IMG/VR virus record: IMGVR_UViG_3300037847_007204
Span: 1 to 23,879 of that record
Reading direction: 5' to 3' (one strand)
DNA from: a virus
Length of the DNA: 23,879 bases
Shown here: one piece after another, positions 3,248-23,118 of the stretch
How the letters are laid out: every line of letters starts with the position of its first letter
Numbering within the stretch: position 1 is the stretch's first letter
Notes under the pieces: model-generated
Database searches by the model: none
What the model was told of the DNA's origin: nothing
The model's input: the letters and a program-made list of their open reading frames with translations, nothing else
Position numbers and translations under genes: made by a program

Positions 3248-3694
3248 TTATCTAGTTTTATCTTTATTAATTAGTTTAATAGCTTTTTTCATTACTTTAT
3301 CTGTATACGTTTGACCTTTCATTATAGGATTTCTTCGTATACTTATAGGCAAGTCTTCTTCGCCTAATAATATTTTATATATTCTATTTATTAAAAGTTT
3401 ACACTTAACAGATGTTTTGTATAAGCTATATTTTTGTGTTGTATTATTTTTATGTCTCCAAACAATTATCCAACCTTCTCTTACTAACCTTTGCCATCTT
3501 CTTTTATCCCAAGAATACGTATAAGTACCATTTAAAAAATCTTGACGTGTAAATAAATCCATACAATCAAAATATATTAAAAGTTCAAGATCAGCATCGT
3601 TTAATTTATTTGTTTTACAAGCCCACTTTCTTATTATTCTATAGTGTTTAAAAAGACCTATTTCTCTTACGTCTTTAGCTTCTAATTGTCTCAT
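3248..3694 (-). CDS. Possible winged-helix DNA-binding protein, unknown function
   Basis: This 148-residue basic protein reads RKWACKTNKLNDADLELLIY, FTRQDFLNGTYTYSWDKRRW and QRLVREGWIIVWRHKNN. A helix-helix-turn-helix followed by a beta hairpin (GWIIVWRHKNNTTQKYSLY) is the layout of a MarR-like winged helix: the 'LNDADLELLIYF' helix, the 'RRWQRLVREGWI' recognition-helix position, then the wing. The C-terminal third (RRNPIMKGQTYTDKVMKKAI) is an added basic helix. It overlaps the GroES stop by four bases and follows it in the same transcript. Function is not known; a regulator or DNA-binding accessory is inference. Confidence 0.66.
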   Translation of the reverse strand: MRQLEAKDVREIGLFKHYRIIRKWACKTNKLNDADLELLIYFDCMDLFTRQDFLNGTYTYSWDKRRWQRLVREGWIIVWRHKNNTTQKYSLYKTSVKCKLLINRIYKILLGEEDLPISIRRNPIMKGQTYTDKVMKKAIKLINKDKTR

Positions 3695-3951
3695 AATACA
3701 ATAACAACATCTGGTTGTCTAATAACAAGATAAAACTTGTCTTCAACTTCTACACCAAAACCAGCATTTTTATCATAATAAACAGTATCACCGTCTTTTA
3801 CACCTTCAACTAAATTTCCAGCTGACTTAATAATACCTTTACGATATCTAACATCTTCTTTTATTTTATCTGTTAAAAGTAACCCACCTTTTGTTTTAGT
3901 AGGTTTTTCTTTTATTTCTTCTACAACTAAAAATATACCTACTGCTTTCAT
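3691..3951 (-). CDS. groES: GroES-like co-chaperonin (Cpn10)
   Basis: GroES caps the GroEL ring and encloses the folding substrate. The 86-residue product contains the mobile-loop region EKPTKTKGGLLLTDKIKEDV, in which GGLLL takes the place of the GGIVL contact tripeptide of E. coli GroES. It then has YRKGIIKSAGN, VKDGDTVYYDKNAG and a C-terminal VIRQPDVVIVL strand, the expected cpn10 order. It is shorter than the usual 95-100 residues, mainly because the roof-loop region between AGN and VKDGD is reduced. The start codon overlaps the GroEL stop by four bases, so the two are co-translated. The order groEL then groES is the reverse of the usual bacterial operon. Confidence 0.93.
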   Translation of the reverse strand: MKAVGIFLVVEEIKEKPTKTKGGLLLTDKIKEDVRYRKGIIKSAGNLVEGVKDGDTVYYDKNAGFGVEVEDKFYLVIRQPDVVIVL

Positions 3952-5492
3952 AACTCTCTCATGTTACTAATTACACAATCAGTAGATAATATTGTAGTTG
4001 CTACAGATACAGCGTTTTTTAAAGCTGTTTTAGTTACTAGCACTGGATCTATAATACCAGATTTAACCATATTAGATGGTTTGCCAGTCACTACATTTAT
4101 ACCCCAACCTTTTTTGTTAAGCTCTTCAAAGCTTATACTAGCGTTGTTTAGTATTGTTTTATAAGGTGCTTTTATAGCTTCTATAAATATTTTTTCACCT
4201 TCAGTTTTACAGCTTAAACTATTAGCTGCATTTAATAAAGCTACACCTCCTCCTGGAACTATACCTTCTTTTATTGCAGCTTTTGTTGCGTGTATCGCGT
4301 CATCAACTCTATCTTTCTTTTCTTTTAATTCAACATCAGAGTTAGCACCTACAGTTATAACTGCTACATTACCAGATAAAACGCCTAAACGTTCTTGTAG
4401 TTTTTCAGTTTTTAAACCAGGTGCGTTTGTATTAATTTGATCTTCAATTGATTTAATTCTTTCTTTAGCAACTTCAGAAATATTAGATATTTTTAAAACT
4501 GTTGATTTACTGTCTGAAACAGCGCTATCACATTCACCTAACATGTCTGGTGTTATAAGATCTACATCATCGCCGTATTCTTCATTAATATGAACAGCTC
4601 CAGTAACAGCAGCAATATCATCTAAAAAATCTTTTTTCCAGAAACTAAACCCTGGAGGCGCAACAACGTTTGCTTTTATGTTACCTTTTATTTTATTCAT
4701 AACTAAAGCGCTCATAGGTTGTTTATCTAATTCACCTATAATTAAAATGCTTCTGTTATTTTCAACAGCATATTCTAATACTGTTTGTATTTTTCTTACA
4801 GTTGTTATTTTAGAAGAAACTAATAATACTAAAGGTTTTTCAAGAGTAACATTTTGTTTTGTTACGTCTGTTACAAAGTTTGGGTTTGCAAAACCTTGAT
4901 TTATCTGAGAGCCTGAAACAAGTTGTACGCTAGTTTCTTCAGATTTAGTATCAGTGTCCATAAGCACTACACCGTTTTTACCAACCTTTTTAAAAGCATC
5001 ACCAATTATGTAGCCAAGGTTTTTATCGTTATTTGACGATATGCAAGCAACTTGGTCAATCATATCACCTTCAACAGGTATTGATACTTTATTTAAATAC
5101 TTTATAGTTTTATCGTAACATTTTTGTATATCTTCTTTTATGTTACGTAAAGATTCTTTATGGTCTTTAGCTTTGTCTATAAACGCATGAGCTAAAACTG
5201 TAGCTGTTGTAGTACCGTCTCCAGCTTCGGTTACGGTTTTTCTAGCAGCTTCTTTTATTAATGTAGCACCAATATCTTCTACAGCATCATGTAGATTAAC
5301 TGAATTAGCTACAGTTACACCGTCTTTTGTAATTAACGGTCGACCCATAAAGTCTTCTAATATAACACACTTACCGCTAGCTCCTAATGTAGAGCTAACG
5401 GCTTGTGTTAATTTTGTAATACCATTGAACACTTTTTCTTGAGCATCACTACCAAAGTTTAAGTGCTTCACTATTTTTTGTGAGTTTTGCAT
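3948..5492 (-). CDS. groEL: GroEL-like chaperonin (Hsp60)
   Basis: GroEL forms ATP-driven rings that fold proteins; phage copies are thought to fold virion proteins. The 514-residue product has the whole domain order. The nucleotide-binding stretch is GASGKCVILEDFMGRP, the GDGTTTATVLA motif is at residues 91-101 (Asp92 equals E. coli Asp87), and the apical domain follows at about 190-370. The return equatorial segment RVDDAIHATKAAIKEG holds the catalytic Asp at 398, followed by IVPGGGVALL. The apical substrate groove is divergent (GSQINQGFANPNF where E. coli has GMQFDRGYLSPYF). The protein stops at CVISNMREL, so the disordered Gly-Gly-Met tail is absent. It sits in the structural-gene transcript, directly before its GroES. 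Confidence 0.96.
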   Translation of the reverse strand: MQNSQKIVKHLNFGSDAQEKVFNGITKLTQAVSSTLGASGKCVILEDFMGRPLITKDGVTVANSVNLHDAVEDIGATLIKEAARKTVTEAGDGTTTATVLAHAFIDKAKDHKESLRNIKEDIQKCYDKTIKYLNKVSIPVEGDMIDQVACISSNNDKNLGYIIGDAFKKVGKNGVVLMDTDTKSEETSVQLVSGSQINQGFANPNFVTDVTKQNVTLEKPLVLLVSSKITTVRKIQTVLEYAVENNRSILIIGELDKQPMSALVMNKIKGNIKANVVAPPGFSFWKKDFLDDIAAVTGAVHINEEYGDDVDLITPDMLGECDSAVSDSKSTVLKISNISEVAKERIKSIEDQINTNAPGLKTEKLQERLGVLSGNVAVITVGANSDVELKEKKDRVDDAIHATKAAIKEGIVPGGGVALLNAANSLSCKTEGEKIFIEAIKAPYKTILNNASISFEELNKKGWGINVVTGKPSNMVKSGIIDPVLVTKTALKNAVSVATTILSTDCVISNMREL

Positions 5493-9819: not shown

Positions 9820-10155
9820 TTACCAAGGCACATCTTTTGTTACAGATGTTGGTGTAATTTTTTCTGTTATCAAGTTATCGAGATTAGATTTAAGTTGATT
9901 AACATCTAAGTTGTCTATTAGCCAAGCTTCAACGTCTGACTGCGTTAATTCATCAAAAGCTGTAAAATCTTCAGAATTTGGTTCATCTATTTTTGCTACA
10001 CCAATTACTGTAGACTTATAAGCATTGTTGTTTGAGTCTGTTTGATCAGATGTAGCTGTATATGAATAGTGCACGTTGTAAACAACGTTTGAAAGCGAGT
10101 TTTGTGTTGGACGTACGTCAAGTTTATTTATTGTCCAAGCATATGTATTAGCCAT
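9820..10155 (-). CDS. Small phage protein, resembles DUF7936
   Basis: The 111-residue product begins MANTYAWTINKLDVRPTQNS and contains NVVYNVHYSYTATSDQ, then FTAFDELTQSDVEAWLIDNL and a final PTSVTKDVPW. The pattern 'W.I..LD..P....L.NVV..VH....A.......Y......G...........F...ELT...V..W' and the 'P....PW' end match a small protein found beside fibre genes in many marine phages, which I remember as DUF7936 (unverified). A fibre-assembly or tail accessory role is likely only by position. It overlaps the S74 fibre gene by eight bases. Confidence 0.78.
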   Translation of the reverse strand: MANTYAWTINKLDVRPTQNSLSNVVYNVHYSYTATSDQTDSNNNAYKSTVIGVAKIDEPNSEDFTAFDELTQSDVEAWLIDNLDVNQLKSNLDNLITEKITPTSVTKDVPW

Positions 10156-12022
10156 TGTTTTCTAGTGTTTGTATTCTTGTTTCTAATTGTTCTATTTTTG
10201 TTATTGCTTCTTTTAAAGCTGCAGTTAATATAGGAACTAGCTTTGCTTGATCAATGCCTTGATAAACTGCATTACCATTTGAATCAACAGCATCTTTTTC
10301 TCCTTCTACAGCTTCTGGAACAACAGTTTGAGTTTCATGTGCTAAAAAACCATCAACAACTTGAGTACTACCTATAAAGTTAAATCTTTTAGGTTCTAAT
10401 TGTTTTACTTTATTTATTCCATTAGTAATATTTACTACATTTTCTTTTAACCTATAATCTGAAGAAGTGTTGTATGCAGTTGCAAAATTACTAACAGTTA
10501 TAGATCCTCTTTCACCACTATTACTATAAAAACCTACAGCTTTAGCAGGAGAACTACCTTGATTTGATCTTGTTAATCTTAATAGTTTAGAATCTGTATT
10601 ATCTAAAGTTGCTGACATTTCTATTAAACTACTTGGTGAGGTAGTTCCTATACCTACATTAGTATTATTAAAAATAGTTTTTTGACTAGCTGAATCAATT
10701 TCTATAAATGATTGATTTTCACCTCCATCTATATCACCTATTTTGTATATATATGTACCGTTATTTATACTTAATCCTGTTTCATTTCCATCACCTACTA
10801 TAAGTCCATTTTGACCATTAACGTGTAATTTAGCACTTGGACTAGTGGTACCAATACCCACGTCACCTGTTATTGTACTATCACCTGTAGTACTAACTCC
10901 TGTATTTGTAGTTTCAAACTTTTTACTATTGTTATAATATAAATCAACACTACCGTTAAAATTACAATCAACATATGTTTCACCATTAGCAGATTCTAAT
11001 AATAAATTAGTTGCTTGTATTTTTAGATCTCCAGATCCATTTTCTAATATTGTACTATATGGTGATCCAAAGTCTGTATGACCTATTATTAAATCTCCAG
11101 TTCCAGTAGTTCCAAATCTAGCATAAACATTATCATTAAAACGTACATCACCAGTCATTGTTCCGCCACTTGTAGGTAAACCACCAGAAACATCTTCCCA
11201 GGCAATACCAGAGCCAGTTGATGTTAGTACTTGACCGTCTGATCCTTGCGCTGTTGCTATTTTAAGGTTTGTTAAATTTACAGTACCGTTTACATCTAGT
11301 TTTTCGCTAGGACTAGCGGTATTAACACCAACGTTGCCTGATGAGGTAACGCGCATTCGTTCAGCGTCACTTGTTCTAATTATAAAGTCTCCATCTGATG
11401 CATTGCCAATTTGAACTCTATTTGTACCATCATTTTCAAGGTCTAGAAAAGTAAAGGTGTTAGTAGAATTTATAATTGCGCCTACATTATCTGTAGAACT
11501 TATCTCTAACGTAGCACCAGGACTAGTTGTTCCAATACCTACGTTTCCCGGGTTTGAAAAATACGCATGAGTGTTATCGCCGTTTAATACTAAGTAATTA
11601 GTTGTTCCTCCAGAACCGTCATCTGTTTTAAATGTAATATCACCATCATCATTGGTGTTGGAAATAACTAAATCACCTGTAATAGTCCTTAAATGTGTAT
11701 TTGTACCGTCATGAAAAAATCTACCATCTGTTGCACCTCCAACATCTATTCTTACATCATCAATGGCTCGTAAGTTTTTGCTAATAACAATAGCTGGACT
11801 GCCACCATCAAACCTCATGTATTGAGTTATTCCGCCGCTATCGTTGTCGCATTTAATTACAATATCAGCGTCGTCTGCGTTTTGTATAATTTCTAAATCG
11901 CCAGTAGAATTTTCAACAACAGACTTTGATCCATCGTGATATATCTGTAAATCATCACTGTCGCCAAAAGATGCTTTTATATCATCTTCAGAGTTTACTT
12001 TACTTAAAAATTTTATTGACAT
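10148..12022 (-). CDS. Tail fibre with C-terminal peptidase S74 (intramolecular chaperone)
   Basis: The 624-residue product is a fibre with repeated beta modules of the type NVGIGTTSPSAKLHVNG, seen at about five places (GNVGIGTTSPGATLEIS, GNVGVNTASPSEKLDVNG, GDVGIGTTSPSAKL). The last 104 residues are an intramolecular chaperone of the S74 family. It begins at SDYRLKENV with Ser521 and Lys526 as the expected Ser-Lys cleavage dyad. It continues LEPKRFNF and GFLAHETQTVVPEAV, and ends in a coiled coil (ITKIEQLETRIQTLENNG). In this family the chaperone trimerises the fibre, then cuts itself off. The N-terminus (MSIKFLSKVNSEDDIKASFG) resembles that of the next fibre. It is one of four fibre genes in this transcript. 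Confidence 0.93.
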   Translation of the reverse strand: MSIKFLSKVNSEDDIKASFGDSDDLQIYHDGSKSVVENSTGDLEIIQNADDADIVIKCDNDSGGITQYMRFDGGSPAIVISKNLRAIDDVRIDVGGATDGRFFHDGTNTHLRTITGDLVISNTNDDGDITFKTDDGSGGTTNYLVLNGDNTHAYFSNPGNVGIGTTSPGATLEISSTDNVGAIINSTNTFTFLDLENDGTNRVQIGNASDGDFIIRTSDAERMRVTSSGNVGVNTASPSEKLDVNGTVNLTNLKIATAQGSDGQVLTSTGSGIAWEDVSGGLPTSGGTMTGDVRFNDNVYARFGTTGTGDLIIGHTDFGSPYSTILENGSGDLKIQATNLLLESANGETYVDCNFNGSVDLYYNNSKKFETTNTGVSTTGDSTITGDVGIGTTSPSAKLHVNGQNGLIVGDGNETGLSINNGTYIYKIGDIDGGENQSFIEIDSASQKTIFNNTNVGIGTTSPSSLIEMSATLDNTDSKLLRLTRSNQGSSPAKAVGFYSNSGERGSITVSNFATAYNTSSDYRLKENVVNITNGINKVKQLEPKRFNFIGSTQVVDGFLAHETQTVVPEAVEGEKDAVDSNGNAVYQGIDQAKLVPILTAALKEAITKIEQLETRIQTLENNG

Positions 12023-15123: not shown

Positions 15124-15160
15124 CACAACTTTAATACGACTGCACATAGATAATATAATA
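15124..15160 (+). promoter_or_regulatory. Rightward two-box promoter-like motif, copy 1
   Basis: AATACGA (15133-15139), a 7-base spacer, then TAGATAATATAATA (15147-15160), ten bases before the ATG at 15170. The same pair of boxes with the same 7-base spacer recurs five more times in the right arm. TATAAT as a -10 with TTTAAT as a -35 (18-base spacing) would suit a sigma70-like enzyme; this reading is inference. Confidence 0.7.
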
Positions 15161-15169
15161 AAATTAACT

Positions 15170-15337
15170 ATGCTACTTATAAATAAATATCAAATCAAAC
15201 TTACTACAAATTTACTAACAAATAACTATATTAATATTAAATTTATTTCTAATAAACTATTTATAATTAATAATCCTTCAAATATTAATATAACTAAATT
15301 ACTAACTAAAAATAATATAACTTTTAAAGCAATTTAA
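15170..15337 (+). CDS. Hypothetical 55-residue low-complexity protein
   Basis: The reading frame from this ATG encodes 55 residues, MLLINKYQIKLTTNLLTNNY onward, almost only Leu, Ile, Asn, Thr and Lys. I chose this start because it follows a promoter-like motif and an AAATTAACTATG leader like those of neighbouring genes; an in-frame ATG exists at 15113, before the motif. The composition is what very AT-rich DNA would encode by chance, so the gene is doubtful. No domain is recognisable. Confidence 0.45.
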   Translation: MLLINKYQIKLTTNLLTNNYINIKFISNKLFIINNPSNINITKLLTKNNITFKAI

Positions 15338-15342
15338 AAAAA

Positions 15343-15379
15343 CACAATTTAAATACTAACACTATTAGATAATATAAAT
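15343..15379 (+). promoter_or_regulatory. Rightward two-box promoter-like motif, copy 2
   Basis: AATACTA (15352-15358), 7 bases, TAGATAATATAAAT (15366-15379), preceded by CACAATTTA. It lies 41 bases before the ATG at 15421 in an 83-base gap between genes. Spacing is identical to the other five copies. Confidence 0.68.
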
Positions 15380-15420
15380 GTAAATAATAACTTAATAATA
15401 ATAACTTAAAACAAATAACT

Positions 15421-15648
15421 ATGCAAACTTTAAAATCAAAACGCTTCGTAATTCGCAAATCACTAATTGGCAAAAATCAAATCATTGAAGTAACTTTCAA
15501 AAATGGCAAAAAAGCAAAGTATAATCATGACCTCGCTTACAACATCATGCAAAGCAAACTAAATACTATGCCTTGCTTTGAAAAATACAAAAGCTATACA
15601 AGTAGCACTTCAATTCCAGTAATTCTACGTGACAAAGTAATACTTTAA
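15421..15648 (+). CDS. Hypothetical small basic protein
   Basis: I do not recognise this 75-residue protein. It starts MQTLKSKRFVIRKSLIGKNQ, continues IIEVTFKNGKKAKYNHDLAY and NIMQSKLNTMPCFEKYKSY, and ends SIPVILRDKVIL. It is basic, with a likely beta hairpin (VIRKSLIGKNQIIEVTFKNG) followed by a helix. It has its own promoter-like motif and is followed by a clear terminator hairpin, so it is probably a single-gene early transcript. Functions of such small phage genes are often host takeover; that is inference here. Confidence 0.72.
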   Translation: MQTLKSKRFVIRKSLIGKNQIIEVTFKNGKKAKYNHDLAYNIMQSKLNTMPCFEKYKSYTSSTSIPVILRDKVIL

Positions 15649-15661
15649 TCACTTATAAACT

Positions 15662-15694
15662 AAGAGCAGTAGTATAATACTCTGCTGCTCTTTT
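15662..15694 (+). terminator. Intrinsic terminator after the gene at 15421-15648
   Basis: AAGAGCAG (15662-15669) pairs with CTGCTCTT (15685-15692), eight base pairs, with AGTAT/ATACT as an inner stem in the loop, and ends in a TTTT run. This is the one clear rho-independent-type hairpin I found. Confidence 0.7.
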
Positions 15695-15734
15695 AAACAC
15701 TTAAACAAATAATCACCTTTAAAAACTAAATAAA

Positions 15735-15884
15735 ATGAGAAAATTTCATCATAATAAAGTAATTAATGTACTATCTAACGTAGCAGTTTACTCTGCAGTA
15801 ACACTAATCTTATCAGGTTCACTAATGATACTAATGTCAGTAATATCAGGTGATGTTCCAAGTAGCTTTGGAATATATGGGTAA
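15735..15884 (+). CDS. Small single-pass membrane protein, unknown function
   Basis: Found by reading the gap between genes: MRKFHHNKVINVLSNVAVYS, AVTLILSGSLMILMSVISG, then DVPSSFGIYG and stop. The product has 49 residues with a basic N-terminus and one hydrophobic segment from about residue 15 to 37, so it is a plausible inner-membrane peptide with the N-terminus inside. No two-box motif lies directly before it; it follows the terminator by about 40 bases. Small phage membrane peptides can affect lysis timing, superinfection or host membranes, but nothing here shows which. Confidence 0.6.
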   Translation: MRKFHHNKVINVLSNVAVYSAVTLILSGSLMILMSVISGDVPSSFGIYG

Positions 15885-15885
15885 A

Positions 15886-15922
15886 CACAAATTAAATACA
15901 ACAAAAGTAAGATAATATAATA
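15886..15922 (+). promoter_or_regulatory. Rightward two-box promoter-like motif, copy 3
   Basis: CACAAATTAAATACAA (15886-15901), 7 bases, AAGATAATATAATA (15909-15922). It lies 27 bases before the ATG at 15950 and starts right after the stop of the membrane-protein gene. Confidence 0.68.
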
Positions 15923-15949
15923 AAATAATAACTAATAAAAATAAATACT

Positions 15950-16147
15950 ATGTACTATAATAAATATCACAAAACTTGGAAACAAGCATTTGCTGAAGTA
16001 AACGCTCAAGCACTTAAACACGAAATAATTAAAGCAATAGCTTCTGAAATAGTTCAAAGACCAGTGGAAAATCTAATAGGTTTCACTGATGAACAAAGAA
16101 ACCAAGTTTGGAGTGACTATTATAATACTATAACATTAAATAAATAA
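15950..16147 (+). CDS. Hypothetical small helical protein
   Basis: The 65-residue product reads MYYNKYHKTWKQAFAEVNAQ, ALKHEIIKAIASEIVQRPVE, NLIGFTDEQRNQVWSDYYNT, ending ITLNK. It is mostly helical and soluble, with no recognisable domain. It begins after a two-box motif and is followed two bases later by another small gene starting in the AATAACTATG context. I can give no function; it belongs to the early small-gene block. Confidence 0.68.
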   Translation: MYYNKYHKTWKQAFAEVNAQALKHEIIKAIASEIVQRPVENLIGFTDEQRNQVWSDYYNTITLNK

Positions 16148-16149
16148 CT

Positions 16150-16275
16150 ATGCAAAAACTAGATAAAATAGCACAAGAAGTATTTGGTGAGTTTGGATTC
16201 ACTACGTGTACTTCACATCAACAAGAAACAATATTAACTTATTACTCTAATTTTAAAAAACTATGCAATGAATAA
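16150..16275 (+). CDS. Hypothetical 41-residue protein
   Basis: Reading from the ATG just after the previous stop gives MQKLDKIAQEVFGEFGFTTC, TSHQQETILTYYSNFKKLCNE and TAA. The start has the AAATAACTATG context shared by this block, and the end overlaps the next gene as ATGAATAA. The product is mainly one amphipathic helix with a short central turn. It is too small to classify; the tight packing on both sides is the best support that it is a real gene. Confidence 0.58.
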   Translation: MQKLDKIAQEVFGEFGFTTCTSHQQETILTYYSNFKKLCNE

Positions 16276-16519
16276 TAAAAGAGAATTTATGAATATACCT
16301 TATGAGGTAAAAGATAACAAGTTTAATCAATGGTTTACTTGTAAGTACTTCAACTTCTACCCGTATCACATCATGTCATTTTCTACAAATACAGAAGATG
16401 AAATGAAGCAAAAAATAGCGGATTACGTAGATAATAGAGTAAAATACGAGCGAAAATATAAACTAAGTACTAAAGCGGCAGCGCAATTTTACAAAGAATT
16501 AAATTATAAAGGCGATTAA
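16268..16519 (+). CDS. Hypothetical protein, aromatic-rich
   Basis: The 83-residue product begins MNNKREFMNIPYEVKDNKFN and contains WFTCKYFNFYPYHIMSFSTN, an unusually aromatic stretch, followed by a charged helix (TEDEMKQKIADYVDNRVKYE) and a lysine-rich end. No known domain. A second Met at residue 8 is possible, but the first start fits the eight-base overlap with the previous gene. Function unknown. Confidence 0.67.
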   Translation: MNNKREFMNIPYEVKDNKFNQWFTCKYFNFYPYHIMSFSTNTEDEMKQKIADYVDNRVKYERKYKLSTKAAAQFYKELNYKGD

Positions 16520-16521
16520 CT

Positions 16522-16692
16522 ATGAAAATAATGAAATATAGAATAATATATAGGAACACCTTTCATGGTGACGAAGAAATAGATACAGCGGAAACTAGAC
16601 GTGAAGCTATAAGATTAGTAAACGAATATAAATTAGCATTTCGCTCTGATAACATATACTTTAACAAATTAAATACGAAATACTACAGATAA
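16522..16692 (+). CDS. Hypothetical 56-residue protein
   Basis: Translation from the ATG two bases after the previous stop gives MKIMKYRIIYRNTFHGDEEI, DTAETRREAIRLVNEYKLAF and RSDNIYFNKLNTKYYR. The layout is beta strand, acidic turn, alpha helix (TRREAIRLVNEYKLAF), beta strand, typical of small phage proteins with a ferredoxin-like or RRM-sized fold, though I would not assign one. The end of the gene contains the fourth two-box motif, and the stop TAA is part of it. Confidence 0.66.
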   Translation: MKIMKYRIIYRNTFHGDEEIDTAETRREAIRLVNEYKLAFRSDNIYFNKLNTKYYR

Positions 16693-16699
16693 TATAATA
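16664..16699 (+). promoter_or_regulatory. Rightward two-box promoter-like motif, copy 4
   Basis: ACAAATTAAATACGA (16664-16678), 7 bases, CAGATAATATAATA (16686-16699), ten bases before the ATG at 16709. The motif is embedded in the last codons and stop of the previous gene. Confidence 0.7.
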
Positions 16700-16708
16700 A
16701 AAAAAACT

Positions 16709-16900
16709 ATGCAAACAATTAAATTCTTACCAAACAATCAAATACGCCTTGGCAATACAACTTATAAAGGTTATACAATAGGCGAACTACCAAAATCCTT
16801 CGGTTTTATTTATGATGAAGATACAGACAAAGAAGGTAAATCAGAGTGGTTTAACTACAAAGGTTTAACTTATGTAGAAAAAACATTACTTCCATGGTAG
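16709..16900 (+). CDS. Hypothetical small protein
   Basis: The 63-residue product reads MQTIKFLPNNQIRLGNTTYK, GYTIGELPKSFGFIYDEDTD, KEGKSEWFNYKGLTYVEKTL, ending LPW. It looks like a small all-beta protein with an acidic loop (DEDTDKEGKSE). It is the first gene after the fourth two-box motif, with only about ten bases between motif and start codon. No function is known. Confidence 0.68.
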   Translation: MQTIKFLPNNQIRLGNTTYKGYTIGELPKSFGFIYDEDTDKEGKSEWFNYKGLTYVEKTLLPW

Positions 16901-16908
16901 TAACTAAT

Positions 16909-17109
16909 ATGAAAGAGCTATGCAATTACTCTTTACAACAGAAAAAACTACGTGCTGCGGAGCATAGACGCAAGCACTCACATGACGGTCAGTGCAGTGG
17001 ACTTACAGACAAGGAGTATAATAGAATACAAACTCGTCAAAAATCTACTTTTTCAAAAGCTAGAAAGTTCACTCACAACCGTATGTGGAAATATTATAAC
17101 TTAAAATAA
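16909..17109 (+). CDS. Hypothetical basic protein
   Basis: From the ATG at 16909 the product has 66 residues: MKELCNYSLQQKKLRAAEHR, RKHSHDGQCSGLTDKEYNRI, QTRQKSTFSKARKFTHNRMW, ending KYYNLK. An upstream in-frame ATG at 16894 would add MVVTN but overlaps the previous gene by seven bases; the downstream start has a better A/T-rich leader. The protein is strongly basic with clusters of Lys, Arg and His, suggesting nucleic-acid contact; this is inference. No domain recognised. Confidence 0.64.
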   Translation: MKELCNYSLQQKKLRAAEHRRKHSHDGQCSGLTDKEYNRIQTRQKSTFSKARKFTHNRMWKYYNLK

Positions 17110-17114
17110 ACACT

Positions 17115-17546
17115 ATGACAAATTATCAACTACAACAAAAATACTTAGAAGCAGACTTCGTTTTTAATATGCTTTCTAAATATGGAATTAAAGAAGTAAC
17201 AACTCAGCGTCAAGCTAAAAATGAAACTCGTGAGTTTGAGTTTCCTGTACCTTGCTACACAAAACAAAGACTTAAGTGGTTTAAAAGTAAAAACTATAAC
17301 TTAAATGATTTACCTCGATTAAGAATCGCTGTGTTTAAATCAGGCTATGTACGTAAGCAAAACGGTGCATACAAACCTTATCAACTAAATCCACAGTACA
17401 AACAGAATCAAAAGTGGGTTTGGCAAAGAGAAAATGGTGAAATATATATATCAGACACTGTATGTAATGCAAGAGCTCTTATATACTCGCCATTAACTAG
17501 ATTAAACTATATGTTAAACTATTACCTTAAAAACTATGCAAAATAA
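17115..17546 (+). CDS. Hypothetical protein, basic and aromatic
   Basis: I do not recognise this 143-residue protein. It starts MTNYQLQQKYLEADFVFNML and contains TREFEFPVPCYTKQRLKWFK, LNDLPRLRIAVFKSGYVRKQ and WVWQRENGEIYISDTVCNAR. It is basic with many Tyr, Trp and Lys residues, and predicted mixed alpha/beta with a C-terminal helix (LTRLNYMLNYYLKNYAK). Five bases separate it from the previous gene, so it is probably on the same transcript. Confidence 0.7.
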   Translation: MTNYQLQQKYLEADFVFNMLSKYGIKEVTTQRQAKNETREFEFPVPCYTKQRLKWFKSKNYNLNDLPRLRIAVFKSGYVRKQNGAYKPYQLNPQYKQNQKWVWQRENGEIYISDTVCNARALIYSPLTRLNYMLNYYLKNYAK

Positions 17547-17547
17547 T

Positions 17548-17658
17548 ATGAATCCTTGGGAAAGATTGTATAACCACCCAGCGTTTGAGAGTTATACAAA
17601 AGAACAAATAGATGAAATGACATTTGCTGAATTACATGAAATACTAGACTATGATTGA
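17548..17658 (+). CDS. Hypothetical 36-residue acidic protein
   Basis: MNPWERLYNHPAFESYTKEQ then IDEMTFAELHEILDYD and TGA. It begins one base after the previous stop, with an A-rich leader, and its end overlaps the following start, so it fills the gap neatly. It is a short acidic helix-turn-helix-sized peptide with no known relatives that I can name. Its reality rests on packing and composition. Confidence 0.52.
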   Translation: MNPWERLYNHPAFESYTKEQIDEMTFAELHEILDYD

Positions 17659-17749
17659 ACTAAATAAATTACAAGAACAATATAACAATAACGAGATAAC
17701 TTTTGAAGAATATCATGAAGGATTAGATCTTCTTGGTTGGCTAAAATAA
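17651..17749 (+). CDS. Hypothetical 32-residue peptide
   Basis: MIELNKLQEQYNNNEITFEE then YHEGLDLLGWLK and TAA. The start overlaps the previous stop by eight bases. The 'LQEQY.N.EITFEEYHEGLDLL' pattern resembles the short helical linker region of SHOCT-like peptides, in which a 'L..LY..G.IT..EF...K..LL' motif occurs; this is only a pattern resemblance. Too short to assign a function. Confidence 0.5.
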   Translation: MIELNKLQEQYNNNEITFEEYHEGLDLLGWLK

Positions 17750-17755
17750 AAAAAT

Positions 17756-17938
17756 ATGAGTGTAACTAAAAAAATAGATCATGTGGCACAAGGTGTTGCT
17801 GATCATATAAAAGAAATAATATACGACACTGTTGAGTGGCAAATAGCTGACTTTCCAGTAAATGGCGACGAGTATAATGCTATACACAGCGCCGTTATGA
17901 AGCGTGCTATCGAGTATTTGTACGATGACACAAATTAA
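17756..17938 (+). CDS. Hypothetical helical protein
   Basis: The 60-residue product is MSVTKKIDHVAQGVADHIKE, IIYDTVEWQIADFPVNGDEY, NAIHSAVMKRAIEYLYDDTN. It is helical, with two helices around a central GDEY turn. No domain recognised. Its stop codon lies within the fifth two-box motif (ACAAATTAAATACGA), so the promoter-like sequence overlaps its 3' end, as for the genes ending at 16692 and 18944. Confidence 0.66.
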   Translation: MSVTKKIDHVAQGVADHIKEIIYDTVEWQIADFPVNGDEYNAIHSAVMKRAIEYLYDDTN

Positions 17939-17965
17939 ATACGATTACTCGTAGATAATATATAT
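17930..17965 (+). promoter_or_regulatory. Rightward two-box promoter-like motif, copy 5
   Basis: ACAAATTAAATACGA (17930-17944), 7 bases, TAGATAATATATAT (17952-17965), 22 bases before the ATG at 17988. It is the last copy before the structured RNA region. Confidence 0.7.
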
Positions 17966-17987
17966 GTAACAAATAAAATAAATAACT

Positions 17988-18176
17988 ATGTATTGTAAAT
18001 GTGGAGATGAAGTACACCCAGTGAGATTAAATTTAGGCTATAAGACATGTGTAAAGTGTTCTACAACTAAAACTTATAGCTACGTACCAATCATAGAACA
18101 CAAAACAGGTAATACAATACAAATTGTCAGCCAAGAAGTAAGCGCATCAGTGCACAGAGCTTGGCGACGTAAATAG
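17988..18176 (+). CDS. Small zinc-ribbon protein, TraR/DksA-like appearance
   Basis: The 62-residue product has a four-cysteine site near the N-terminus, MYCKCGDEVHPVRLNLGYKT followed by CVKC (Cys3, Cys5, Cys21, Cys24). The spacing suits a zinc ribbon. The rest, SYVPIIEHKTGNTIQIVSQE and VSASVHRAWRRK, is beta then a basic helix. Small CxC...CxxC proteins with this look occur in phages and resemble the zinc knuckle of TraR/DksA transcription modulators, but the usual acidic coiled-coil tip is missing. It may act on host RNA polymerase, which is inference. It is immediately upstream of the structured RNA. Confidence 0.68.
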   Translation: MYCKCGDEVHPVRLNLGYKTCVKCSTTKTYSYVPIIEHKTGNTIQIVSQEVSASVHRAWRRK

Positions 18177-18179
18177 CTA

Positions 18180-18623
18180 GACGAGTAGCTTAATTAGGTC
18201 GGACGGGTGAGGGATCGTTATGAACTCCGCGAGACACATAAGTGAATAGCTAGCAATACCCAGCGAATAAATAACAAACCTGCATGCTGGTAACAGTAGA
18301 CAACCAGGGAATCCCATGGTGTCGAATCCAACCGGAGAGCGGTTAGGAAATGTCTGGGTATAAAACAGGTACAGTATCACGGATTGCAGAGTAATTAACT
18401 GCATGCACGGTGGAAGTCCGACTGCGAAAGCAAAGATAACTGTATCTATAAGCAGTAGTAAGTATAAGTCAGGGTACACACCGGTAAATGACGTGCATCT
18501 TATTACTGCTTTATGGGCGTGATATGGTAAGAAACATATGTGGTGCCGACTATCGACGGATATAAGCGAGCGTACGGAAGTGTATTATGTTTAACGCAGG
18601 TTCGATTCCTGCCACGTCCACTA
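18180..18623 (+). ncRNA. Candidate structured noncoding RNA with tRNA/tmRNA-like 3' domain
   Basis: No plausible gene covers 18177-18641. GC is about 45% (188 of 420 bases in 18181-18600) against roughly 30% around it, as expected for a structured RNA in an AT-rich genome. Visible helices include ATACCCAG/CTGGGTAT (18256-18263 with 18354-18361), TCC-AACCG/CGGTT-GGA (18327-18348), CTGGT/ACCAG (18287-18307), TGCAG/CTGCA (18385-18403), AGATA/TATCT (18434-18447), and a 12-bp stem AAGCAGTAGTAA/TTATTACTGCTT with one G-U pair (18450-18461 with 18500-18511). The 3' end is a tRNA-like domain described separately. Exact ends are not known. Large ornate phage RNAs such as GOLLD and ROOL are a conceivable class, but I cannot match their consensus from memory. 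Confidence 0.75.
18515..18623 (+). ncRNA. tRNA/tmRNA-like domain with G3-U70 and A73
   Basis: GGGCGTG (18515-18521) pairs fully with CACGTCC (18613-18619), including G3 with U70. The unpaired base after it is A (A73), followed by CTA; G3-U70 and A73 are the alanyl-tRNA synthetase identity signals shared by tRNA-Ala and tmRNA. The T arm is canonical: GCAGG, loop TTCGATT, CCTGC (18596-18612), directly abutting the acceptor strand. The D region is only ATATGGTAAG, and AAACATA (18532-18538) pairs with TATGTTT (18586-18592), replacing an anticodon arm by a 7-bp stem closing 47 bases. That layout resembles tmRNA, but no tag-coding frame or room for pseudoknots is present. Confidence 0.72.
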
Positions 18624-18641
18624 ATTTTAAATTAAATATAA

Positions 18642-18944
18642 ATGAGAACATCAGCAAAAGTAAAACAAATGACAAGCGAAAGATCTGGAAGACCAGTGGC
18701 TAATCAGTTTATTATCTATGCTTCTAACGGTACTTATTTTCAAAGTTATAATAGCGTCATAGCTTTTATATCTAATGACGGTAAAGTTACACTAGATGAT
18801 TACTATTGGGACTACTCTCGCACAACAAGTAGATACAGAAATCAGTTTTTAGGTGAAAATACTGCGGAAACTAGAGCTAAAATAGACTCTGGCGAGTATA
18901 AACTAAAAGATTTACAAGTACCTAAAAACCCTTACACAAATTAA
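18642..18944 (+). CDS. Conserved phage protein, resembles DUF8033
   Basis: The 100-residue product contains MTSERSGRPVANQFIIYASN, GTYFQSYNSVIAFISNDGKV and TLDDYYWDYSRTTSRYRNQF, then LGENTAETRAKIDSGEYKLK. The 'SGR.V.NQFII......YFQSY.S.IA.........LD...WDYS.TT..YR..FL.E...ET..KI..G.Y.L' pattern is one I know from uncharacterised early phage proteins, and I recall DUF8033 as its name, unverified. It is soluble with a likely beta sheet and C-terminal helix. It follows the structured RNA and its stop lies in the sixth two-box motif. Confidence 0.74.
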   Translation: MRTSAKVKQMTSERSGRPVANQFIIYASNGTYFQSYNSVIAFISNDGKVTLDDYYWDYSRTTSRYRNQFLGENTAETRAKIDSGEYKLKDLQVPKNPYTN

Positions 18945-18971
18945 ATACGAATAGTAATAGATAATATAATA
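18936..18971 (+). promoter_or_regulatory. Rightward two-box promoter-like motif, copy 6
   Basis: ACAAATTAAATACGA (18936-18950), 7 bases, TAGATAATATAATA (18958-18971), 11 bases before the ATG at 18983. It overlaps the 3' end of the DUF8033-like gene. Confidence 0.7.
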
Positions 18972-20916: not shown

Positions 20917-21023
20917 AACAAAGCTTTAATGAGTGGATGGTGTATATTGGTAACATATATTACGCTAATGATGATATGATGGCTAAAGCATACCAAACAA
21001 TAGAAGAATATGAAGAAGTATAA
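20913..21023 (+). CDS. Hypothetical 36-residue acidic protein
   Basis: MKQSFNEWMVYIGNIYYAND then DMMAKAYQTIEEYEEV and TAA. The start overlaps the HTH gene's stop as ATGA, and the end overlaps the sigma factor gene by 14 bases. The peptide is one amphipathic helix with Tyr and Glu residues. Its position between a DNA-binding protein and a sigma factor is the only hint of role; its main interest may be coupling translation of the sigma factor. Confidence 0.52.
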   Translation: MKQSFNEWMVYIGNIYYANDDMMAKAYQTIEEYEEV

Positions 21024-21777
21024 TATACAGAATTATATAAGATACAAAGAAGATCTTAAAAAATCTATGCCCGCTGAAAAGTTTTACGACTATTATACGC
21101 GAGATGAAATGATTATAAAGTTTATGCCGCTTGTAGAAAATATAGCGCGTAAATTTTCTACATCACAACAAGCATCAGGCGTTATGAGTATTAATGATTT
21201 AATACAAGAGGGTAATATAGGCCTAACACAAGCTGTAGACAAACTTGACTGGGACTTATTAGTTGATTCTGAAGACATTGAAAAAACATTAAAGTCGTTC
21301 TTTTCAAAACGTATAAAAGGATCAATTAGACGTGCTATAGACAATAATAGGGGAAACATACGTATACCAGAACATAAGTTAAATCAAATACGTAAAGACA
21401 ATGGTAAAGACAAAAAAATGATAGAAATGTTTTTTAGTACTATATTTTCTAGTATTGATGAAGAAATAAAAGTTGAAGGCATGAAAGGCACTACAACTTA
21501 TGCTGAAATAATAGAAGATAAAACAGAAGACTATAACAAAGAATTATTAAGTGCTTACATATTAAGTTTAATGGAAAAGTACTTACACCCAAGAGAATAT
21601 GCTGTATTAAAATATAGCTACGGTATTAACGCAGACCGCATGAAAGCTAAGTTAATAGCAGAGATGATAGGACTAAAAGGCAACTCAGCTCATGTGCGTG
21701 TTTCTGAAATAAAAAAAGAAGCAATACAAAAACTTATAGACAACGTAGATCACTCGCAAGTGATTGATTATCTGTAA
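21010..21777 (+). CDS. Phage RNA polymerase sigma factor, sigma70 family
   Basis: The 255-residue product has clear sigma regions. Region 2 spans about 34-115 and includes FMPLVENIARKFST and INDLIQEGNIGLTQAVDKLD, the core RNA-polymerase-binding motif. A RIP motif (NIRIPEHKLNQIRKD, about 117-130) begins region 3. Region 4 spans about 180-245 (LHPREYAVLKYSYGINADRM, KLIAEMIGLKGNSAHVRVSE) with a helix-turn-helix for the -35 region. It lacks sigma70 region 1.1, as alternative sigma factors do. It would direct host RNA polymerase to phage promoters, for which the repeated motifs in this window are candidates; that link is inference. Confidence 0.9.
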   Translation: MKKYNIQNYIRYKEDLKKSMPAEKFYDYYTRDEMIIKFMPLVENIARKFSTSQQASGVMSINDLIQEGNIGLTQAVDKLDWDLLVDSEDIEKTLKSFFSKRIKGSIRRAIDNNRGNIRIPEHKLNQIRKDNGKDKKMIEMFFSTIFSSIDEEIKVEGMKGTTTYAEIIEDKTEDYNKELLSAYILSLMEKYLHPREYAVLKYSYGINADRMKAKLIAEMIGLKGNSAHVRVSEIKKEAIQKLIDNVDHSQVIDYL

Positions 21778-21840: not shown

Positions 21841-22386
21841 ATGACCTTAAATGAAAAACTGGCAACGATCCAGACAAAGTTTAAATCTAAAAAATCTAGA
21901 TTTAACTCATTCGGCAAATACTACTTCAGATCAGCCGAAGACATTCTCGAAGCAACAAAACCCTATTTATTAGAACTAGGAGTAACAGTAACAATTAATG
22001 AAGAAGTTCAATTACTATTTGACAATATGCCTGTAATAGAGTCTGTCGCTACAATAAGCGATGGCGAAAGTGCTATACACGCTAAAGCTATTGTCGGTGT
22101 TGACCTTAATCAGAAAGGTATGCAAGTACCTCAACAGTTTGGTAGCGCTTCATCATATGGCAAAAAGTACGCGCTTGGAAATTTATTTTTAATCGATGAT
22201 ACAGCTGATAGTGATGCTACTAATAATCACGGTAAAGCACCGAAAGCAAAAAACACTTTAACATCTAAATCAGATCCAGCATTTGCTAAAGCAAAGGATT
22301 ATATTAAAGCAGGTGGTAAAGTTGATGCTATAAAAGCTAAATATGCCTTGTCTAAAGAAATCGAGGCAGAATTAACAACGCTATAA
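21841..22386 (+). CDS. erf: ERF-family single-strand annealing recombinase
   Basis: ERF proteins anneal complementary single strands in phage recombination and genome circularisation. The 181-residue product has the family core: KYYFRSAEDILEATKPYLLE, LGVTVTINEEV, and the signature VPQQFGSASSYGKKYALGNL followed by FLIDDTADSD at about residues 97-124. The C-terminal part (KAKDYIKAGGKVDAIKAKYA) is a short helical domain after a basic linker. It is the first gene of a recombination set: exonuclease, small protein and SSB follow. A 63-base gap upstream shows no two-box or 47-bp element, so it probably shares a transcript with the sigma gene. Confidence 0.9.
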   Translation: MTLNEKLATIQTKFKSKKSRFNSFGKYYFRSAEDILEATKPYLLELGVTVTINEEVQLLFDNMPVIESVATISDGESAIHAKAIVGVDLNQKGMQVPQQFGSASSYGKKYALGNLFLIDDTADSDATNNHGKAPKAKNTLTSKSDPAFAKAKDYIKAGGKVDAIKAKYALSKEIEAELTTL

Positions 22387-23118
22387 ATGAATAAACAAGA
22401 TGTGTTAAAAAAGTTAGAAATAGATGATCATTACTACGGAGACTTTGGTAAAAAGTATCTTAGTAATTCTGATATCTCTACGTTGTTAACAAATCCTTTA
22501 GCGCTTGGCCAACCATCAAAGCCATCACCAGCTTTTTTAGTAGGCGGTTATTTTCATACAGCTATACTTGAACCTAATAAACTTAAAAAGTTTAAAGTAA
22601 TAGAGTCAAGCAGTAGAAATACAAAAGCGTATAAAGAGATGTCTGGCGGTGAACTATGTTTATTACAGAGTGAGGTAGACGTTATAGAGCTAATGACAGA
22701 TAAAGTATTAGCAAATAATGTATGTAAAGATCTTATTCGCGGTATAAATATAGAATATGAAAAACCAGGCATTGCAGAACTTGAAGGCGAGATGTGGAAA
22801 GGAAAAGCTGATATAGTTAATCATGATGAAAAACTTATTATTGATTTAAAAACTACAGCTGATCTTAATAAATTCAAGTGGTCTGCGTCTAAATATAATT
22901 ACGACTCACAAGCTTATATATATAGTAAGTTATTTGGCTATGAGTTTGTTTTTATAGCAATAGACAAAAACACACATCAAATAGGTATATTCGATTGCTC
23001 TCCACAGTTTTACGAACGTGGTCAAGATAAAGTAAAAAGAGCTGCAGAACAATACCGACTATTTTTTAAATCAGAGGATTTTGATCCTCAACAATTTTTT
23101 ATTAATCAAACACTTTAA
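22387..23118 (+). CDS. PD-(D/E)XK exonuclease, RecB/exoVIII-like
   Basis: The enzyme would resect double-stranded ends to give single strands for ERF. The 243-residue product shows the nuclease core: GGYFHTAIL with His57, EGEMWKGKADIV with Asp142, LIIDLKTTADL with Asp153 and Lys155 (the D-x-K pair), and YDSQAYIYS with Gln175. This order (H, D, DxK, QxxxY) is that of the Cas4/RecB-type and DUF3799-like phage exonucleases. It begins immediately after the ERF stop, so the two are surely co-expressed. No helicase domain is present. Metal-dependent nuclease activity is a family expectation. Confidence 0.88.
   Translation: MNKQDVLKKLEIDDHYYGDFGKKYLSNSDISTLLTNPLALGQPSKPSPAFLVGGYFHTAILEPNKLKKFKVIESSSRNTKAYKEMSGGELCLLQSEVDVIELMTDKVLANNVCKDLIRGINIEYEKPGIAELEGEMWKGKADIVNHDEKLIIDLKTTADLNKFKWSASKYNYDSQAYIYSKLFGYEFVFIAIDKNTHQIGIFDCSPQFYERGQDKVKRAAEQYRLFFKSEDFDPQQFFINQTL

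Follow-up and report, generated by a model that had tools for sequence, protein, structure and literature searches.

The window, that is, the whole 23,879-nt stretch of viral DNA analysed here, which comes from a virus contig of 25,205 bases, carries on its plus strand a small gene for a zinc-ribbon-type protein, directly followed by a non-coding RNA island at positions 18174-18623. The island starts at the stop codon of this gene (TAG, 18174-18176) and has a GC content of 0.451 versus 0.325 in the rest of the window. On its plus strand open stretches do not exceed 52 codons, and its minus strand has one 100-aa ORF, which is without support; a protein-coding gene was rejected for lack of an adequate ORF. 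For the region as a whole, the plus strand gave a better fold than each of 100 shuffled sequences (z = -3.68), and the minus strand gives a negative score too (z = -2.59). The first-pass annotation, which had described a GC-rich structured RNA without a plausible gene, was right in these respects, and its coordinates agree with ours to within a few bases. The features of the locus are the following:

17937-17961, plus strand: putative phage promoter, AAATACGA-N9-GATAATAT, 0 mismatches, upstream of the zinc-ribbon gene and the island
17988-18176, plus strand: gene for a zinc-ribbon-type protein, 62 aa, with 165 relatives in viral contigs
18176-18254, plus strand: frame P, outer stem GCTAG/CTAGC with a variable slot inside
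18181-18198 (ACGAGTAGCTTAATTAGG) and 18236-18249 (ACATAAGTGAATAG), plus strand: conserved core of frame P, flanking the variable slot
18206-18227, plus strand: module M1 (GGTGAGGGATCGTTATGAACTC) in the P slot, found exactly in 33 viral stretches
18256-18361, plus strand: module M2, 8-bp stem ATACCCAG/CTGGGTAT, core GCGAATAAATAACA...GGAAATG
18289-18333, plus strand: module M5 (GTAACAGTA...GAATCCAAC) nested in M2, also in the B slot of related phages L057, L107, L114 and L115
18369-18446, plus strand: module M16, stem TACAGT/ACTGTA, core TATCACGG...CGGTGGAAGTCCGA...AGATAACT
18450-18511, plus strand: module M11, 13-bp stem, core TATAAGTCAGGG...GGTAAATGACGTGCAT
18515-18623, plus strand: unit B, tmRNA-type tRNA-like domain without mRNA-like domain (Rfam tmRNA match, covariation)
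18515-18521/18613-18619, plus strand: acceptor stem of unit B, GGGCGTG/CACGTCC, 7 bp, with G3-U70
18532-18538/18586-18592, plus strand: P2 helix of unit B, AAACATA/TATGTTT, 7 bp
18539-18585, plus strand: module M9 in the B slot, also in the P slot of L149, L174 and L231
18596-18612, plus strand: T arm of unit B, GCAGG-TTCGATT-CCTGC
18620, plus strand: A73 of unit B
21841-23118, plus strand: genes for an ERF-type single-strand annealing protein and a RecE-like exonuclease (Pfam ERF, 103 bits; DUF3799, 91 bits; PHROG exonuclease VIII)

The promoter-like motif occurs six times in the window (15132-18967), always on the plus strand, versus 0.82 copies expected. One copy precedes the zinc-ribbon gene (17937) and a second copy with 0 mismatches (18943-18967) lies after the next gene, starting at 18642, which suggests that one transcript probably extends from the zinc-ribbon gene through the island to the 18642 gene. 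The motif is possibly read by a phage sigma factor encoded at 21010-21777. Elsewhere in the window, on the minus strand, there are genes for phage GroES-like and GroEL proteins (3691-5492), the latter about 40% identical to GroEL of Flavobacterium and Bacteroides phages, and for a structural protein (10148-12022) whose C-terminus (SDYRLKENV...) resembles the peptidase S74 intramolecular chaperone. Hosts were assigned by MAG binning, which for sister contigs is inconsistent (Bacteroidetes, but also Aliivibrio and Rickettsiales bins).

Relatives of the locus were fetched using the 18642 protein, the unit-B 3' end, the M2 core, the zinc ribbon and the M1 core. In most of the 80 fetched zinc-ribbon relatives an RNA island directly follows the gene, and the 3' end of a unit B lies within 760 nt of the zinc-ribbon gene in 57 of 81 loci, the window counted. 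In several of them (L170, L174-L176, L188, L226, L232 and L235) an ordinary tRNA-Met(CAT) or tRNA-Gln(TTG) is located close after the island.

Unit B, the last 109 nt of the island, has a 7-bp acceptor stem, a T arm and a stemless D loop (ATATGGTAAG) containing GG, all features of the tmRNA tRNA-like domain. The helices proposed for this 3' end in the first-pass annotation pair in full: the acceptor with its G3-U70 wobble (7/7 pairs), the T stem (5/5) and the stem closing 47 bases (7/7). The ten-base stemless D region is likewise present, yet it does not set the unit apart from tmRNA as had been thought, since a stemless D region is the normal state there. ARAGORN found neither a tRNA nor a tmRNA in the window, and the Rfam tmRNA model (RF00023) matched unit B with 35.5 bits (E = 1.6e-12), below its gathering cut-off of 47, skipping the inner (mRNA-like) domain; both the tag and the pseudoknots are absent. 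The view that this is neither an ordinary tRNA nor a full tmRNA has held up. Seven sister units in related phages score 60.6-65.7 bits, above the cut-off; they represent a second form (type-1, GGGGGTGAYYTGGTNTTGACG...) of only about 81 nt. Several type-1 phage units have exactly the D-loop string, TGGTTTTGAC, that occurs in tmRNA from two Bacteroidetes MAGs; these MAGs hold sister phage contigs and encode both SmpB and a full tmRNA. By contrast, neither SmpB nor a full-length tmRNA match was found in 19 phage records. Judged by the model matches, the D-loop string in common with the MAG tmRNAs and the absence of SmpB and tmRNA from the phages, unit B represents the tRNA-like domain of a tmRNA from which the message has been lost. 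Functionally it does not qualify as a tmRNA, because the tag domain, one of the defining features, is missing. Two other candidates were rejected. A canonical tRNA would have a D stem and an anticodon arm, neither of which is present, the P2 slot being occupied by modules, and ARAGORN detects none; the two-piece permuted tmRNA model reached only 17.1 bits (E = 0.33), over the T-arm region, and the gene order is normal.

Folded as a single sequence, unit B scores weakly on its own (z = -1.35), and its minimum free energy structure pairs the D region otherwise; support for P2 comes from comparative evidence and not from the predicted fold. Modules M2 (z = -4.0) and M11 (z = -4.6) fold strongly. 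We collected 67 distinct unit-B sequences with 48 distinct stem starts, whose slots measure 24-140 nt and are filled by unrelated modules. For covariation analysis, 54 distinct sequences were cut to the acceptor, the first and last eight slot bases and the T arm, with the slot ends joined by a constant AAAA spacer. The named structure is paired in 93% of the cells and its covariation score is 0.363, versus 0.080 +/- 0.010 for shuffled alignments and at most 0.10 for slid controls, which bears out the proposed P2. Since pairing in the acceptor and T stem was partly demanded by the search pattern, the weight of this result rests on P2, where all five pairs analysed vary on both sides, and on pair 4-69, which is CG in 45 sequences, GC in five and AU in four, with no mismatches. 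Pair 3-70 is G-U throughout this set, in which G3 and U70 were required. A more independent count comes from loci retrieved through a protein or a different module, where G-U was not required: it is present in 24 of 24 genuine units, two pattern matches with unpaired acceptors having been left out as judged spurious. Thus, the loss of G3-U70 in relatives, which the first-pass annotation had named as the outcome that would speak against it, was not seen there. A free scan also retrieved some units with A3-U70 (e.g. L049/L148). Many islands contain a second tRNA-like unit, unit A (AACTAGG...CTAGTTACAA), which is without G3-U70 (AACTAG/CTAGTT), so alanylation does not apply to the island in its entirety. 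In the more distant phages L223, L230 and L243 a single tRNA-like unit follows the zinc-ribbon gene and has other acceptors, for example AGGGTAA/TTACCCT with G3-C70.

Each island is a mosaic drawn from roughly two dozen pieces that recur among the phages; this number is approximate, the modules were defined by hand and some definitions are weak. The order of the pieces is loosely kept, with frame P first, then unit A, the middle modules, M11 and finally unit B. Their cores are near-invariant between phages, and the closing stems change compensatorily. The P core is present at 35 of 81 zinc-ribbon loci, and module P had no exact match in 84,980 species genomes. M1 has several different closing stems among its 33 exact viral occurrences and resides in five frames (P, A, B, M12 and M16) as well as free; it was found in none of 296 genomes from the phylum presumed to contain the hosts, which gives no support for host mimicry. 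The M2 motif was detected in 24 viral stretches, and in L003 its outer stem is different yet paired (TGTGCAG/CTGCACA). M9 is found in P, B, A and M23, and M6 in B, M5, M2 and A. The closing stems of M11 covary (27 of 28 paired, versus 18 when shuffled), and M7 has five different stems with 20 of 20 inner pairs formed. For M2, M5, M6, M8, M9, M12 and M14-M17, no excess of pairing over shuffles was seen at the tested flanks, either because the cores had been cut off the stem edge or because the flanks are too uniform, and the flank-pairing test was not counted as proof of these stems. Near zinc-ribbon genes, modules lie in the sense orientation in 152 of 152 matches. Further pieces occur downstream of unit B, namely, a conserved structured one (AGAGAGATGGCAGATATGCAG...ACACATCTCTCT) in L174, L177 and L188, and a recurring hairpin-like one (AACAGTAGGTACCAAGCCTGGA...GCAATGCCTACTGTT) in L177, L179 and L246.

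Largely different islands can lie between nearly identical flanks. The window and L002 are about 95-96% identical on both sides of the island and agree in frames P and B, yet the window contains M1-M2/M5-M16-M11-M9, whereas L002 contains M13-M14-unit A-M21. Conversely, phages with flanks about 75% identical have pieces in common at 98-100% identity; L178, about 76% identical to the window upstream, has island pieces in common with it at 98%. Most pairs more than 95% identical over the 1.1 kb upstream share most of the island, L186/L187 and L231/L232 sharing under half, and those with 90-95% identity (only four pairs) have a median of 40% of the island in common. When the zinc-ribbon DNA alone is considered, pairs at 96-97% identity may share less than 5% of the island. 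The simplest reading of these identities is recent module exchange, for which the ERF/RecE-like pair is a plausible engine. Compared across relatives, the region is not one fixed RNA class but is hypervariable, a mosaic built of modules that can be exchanged and are common to dozens of phages. The earlier suggestion of a member of a large phage RNA class found no support in Rfam: the models of ROOL, GOLLD and introns gave no gathering-level match in the window or in 20 relatives, and none up to E = 10 within 17930-18720. Group I and II introns, ROOL, GOLLD and riboswitches were rejected for lack of an Rfam match. The other two suggestions survive in part. The idea of a tRNA mimic that can be alanylated and is joined to a larger, ornate RNA comes close as regards the tRNA-like end and the larger RNA, but this RNA is not a single fixed one; a reduced tmRNA agrees with the scores of unit B (below the gathering cut-off) and its sisters, but describes only the 3' unit, the rest being mosaic.

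Sequence and covariation establish a tRNA-like fold with a fixed G3-U70, a lost tag domain, a module-bearing P2 slot and mosaic exchange. The explanation we favour, tentatively and at somewhat short of even odds, is that of a hypervariable island of RNA modules with a tmRNA-type tRNA-like end, in which the mRNA-like domain has been replaced by an exchangeable module delivered against host factors. In such a scenario, the zinc-ribbon gene and the island would be transcribed together, unit B would be freed by RNase P of the host and by 3' tRNA processing, and the host would add CCA. Alanyl-tRNA synthetase would then charge unit B via G3-U70, and EF-Tu and perhaps SmpB would bind it. On this reading, unit B would be host-processed and probably alanylated. 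Its end would act as a natural tRNA scaffold that stabilizes and delivers the module, with unit B tying up stalled ribosomes or the trans-translation factors of the host, or with the modules serving as decoys for RNA-targeting defences; competition with host trans-translation and such decoys are the most likely roles. Recombination, plausibly via the ERF/exonuclease pair, would keep altering the modules. Slightly less confidently, we propose that phages maintain a common pool of at least two dozen structured, conserved RNA modules, recombined into slots of frames that are tRNA-like or of other kinds, so that every phage has its own alanyl-tRNA-like set directed against host translation or defence.

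The island may instead be an array of RNA decoys or antitoxins, each module neutralizing one RNA-targeting defence, such as a nuclease toxin or a tRNA-cleaving system, with the tRNA-like ends serving only for processing or stability and alanylation being irrelevant. Fast turnover of modules whose cores are strictly maintained is compatible with an arms race, modules also reside outside the tRNA-like units, and the island is surrounded by small uncharacterised phage genes. However, G3-U70 is kept while the adjacent pair 4-69 covaries, which would be needless for mere end protection, and we regard this alternative as rather unlikely. It is improbable that the modules are three-dimensional joints of a self-assembling, RNA-only particle in the manner of ROOL and GOLLD: this would suit a large, GC-rich and elaborate phage RNA near tRNAs (PMC12286853), including the tRNA-Met or tRNA-Gln after several islands, but an Rfam match to either class is lacking, and length and composition differ so widely among relatives that one fixed particle is hard to accommodate. 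Even more improbable is a DNA-level element, i.e. a recombination hot spot or a packaging or replication signal with inverted repeats acting as DNA hairpins; hypervariability, inverted repeats and nearby phage recombinase genes are consistent with it, but the invariable sense orientation (152/152), the fixed G-U pair, the conserved T loop and the tmRNA homology speak against it. Functionless decay of tRNA or tmRNA genes can be practically dismissed: although ARAGORN detects neither kind of gene in the window and the modules resemble remnants at first sight, the strong compensatory changes seen in P2 and in the stems of modules, together with near-invariant cores, are incompatible with neutral decay.

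If the favoured explanation of module-bearing tRNA-like ends is true, modular recombination in these viruses would have RNA structure as its unit instead of protein domains or DNA cassettes, and tmRNA without its message would have a bacterial-virus setting. It makes testable the role of a tag-less tRNA-like domain, interference of phage RNA with trans-translation and the use of modules as counter-defence parts. The modules would also offer a ready-made stock of natural RNA 3D elements that can be swapped.

Among known systems, bacterial tmRNA (ssrA, RF00023) has the same G3-U70 acceptor, stemless D loop with GG, T arm and P2, and no encoded CCA. It differs in possessing an mRNA-like domain with resume codon and tag, as well as pseudoknots, and in its length of about 370 nt, compared with 80-220 nt for the phage units with variable modules in the P2 slot. 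Phage tmRNAs surveyed previously are one- or two-piece, and tag-less modular forms are not mentioned in the part of that survey considered here (PMC9004378). A precedent for a tag-less form is the jakobid mitochondrial tmRNA, a tRNA-like domain without tag sequence or pseudoknots (PMC3985003); it is organellar, and we found no report of exchangeable modules or hypervariable arrays for it. ROOL and GOLLD, both large and structured, are encoded by phages and prophages, in many cases close to tRNA islands, and the 5' region of GOLLD is less conserved (PMC12286853). They resemble the island in being large structured phage RNAs near tRNAs, but have a fixed architecture instead of a mosaic of reusable modules and show no sequence or structure match to it. 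DNA searches for homologues in cultured phages returned tRNA-type matches only, and the openly licensed literature searched contained no match for modular or tag-less tmRNA RNAs of phages. Within Rfam and this open literature, what appears to be new is the modular mosaic as a system and not the tRNA-like unit alone. In the artificial 'tRNA scaffold' used for recombinant RNA, a foreign RNA replaces the anticodon arm and is stabilized by the tRNA body. Unit B similarly displays a module in its P2 slot with a tRNA-like body around it; whereas the scaffold is engineered, unit B is natural, apparently derived from tmRNA and evolving by module exchange.
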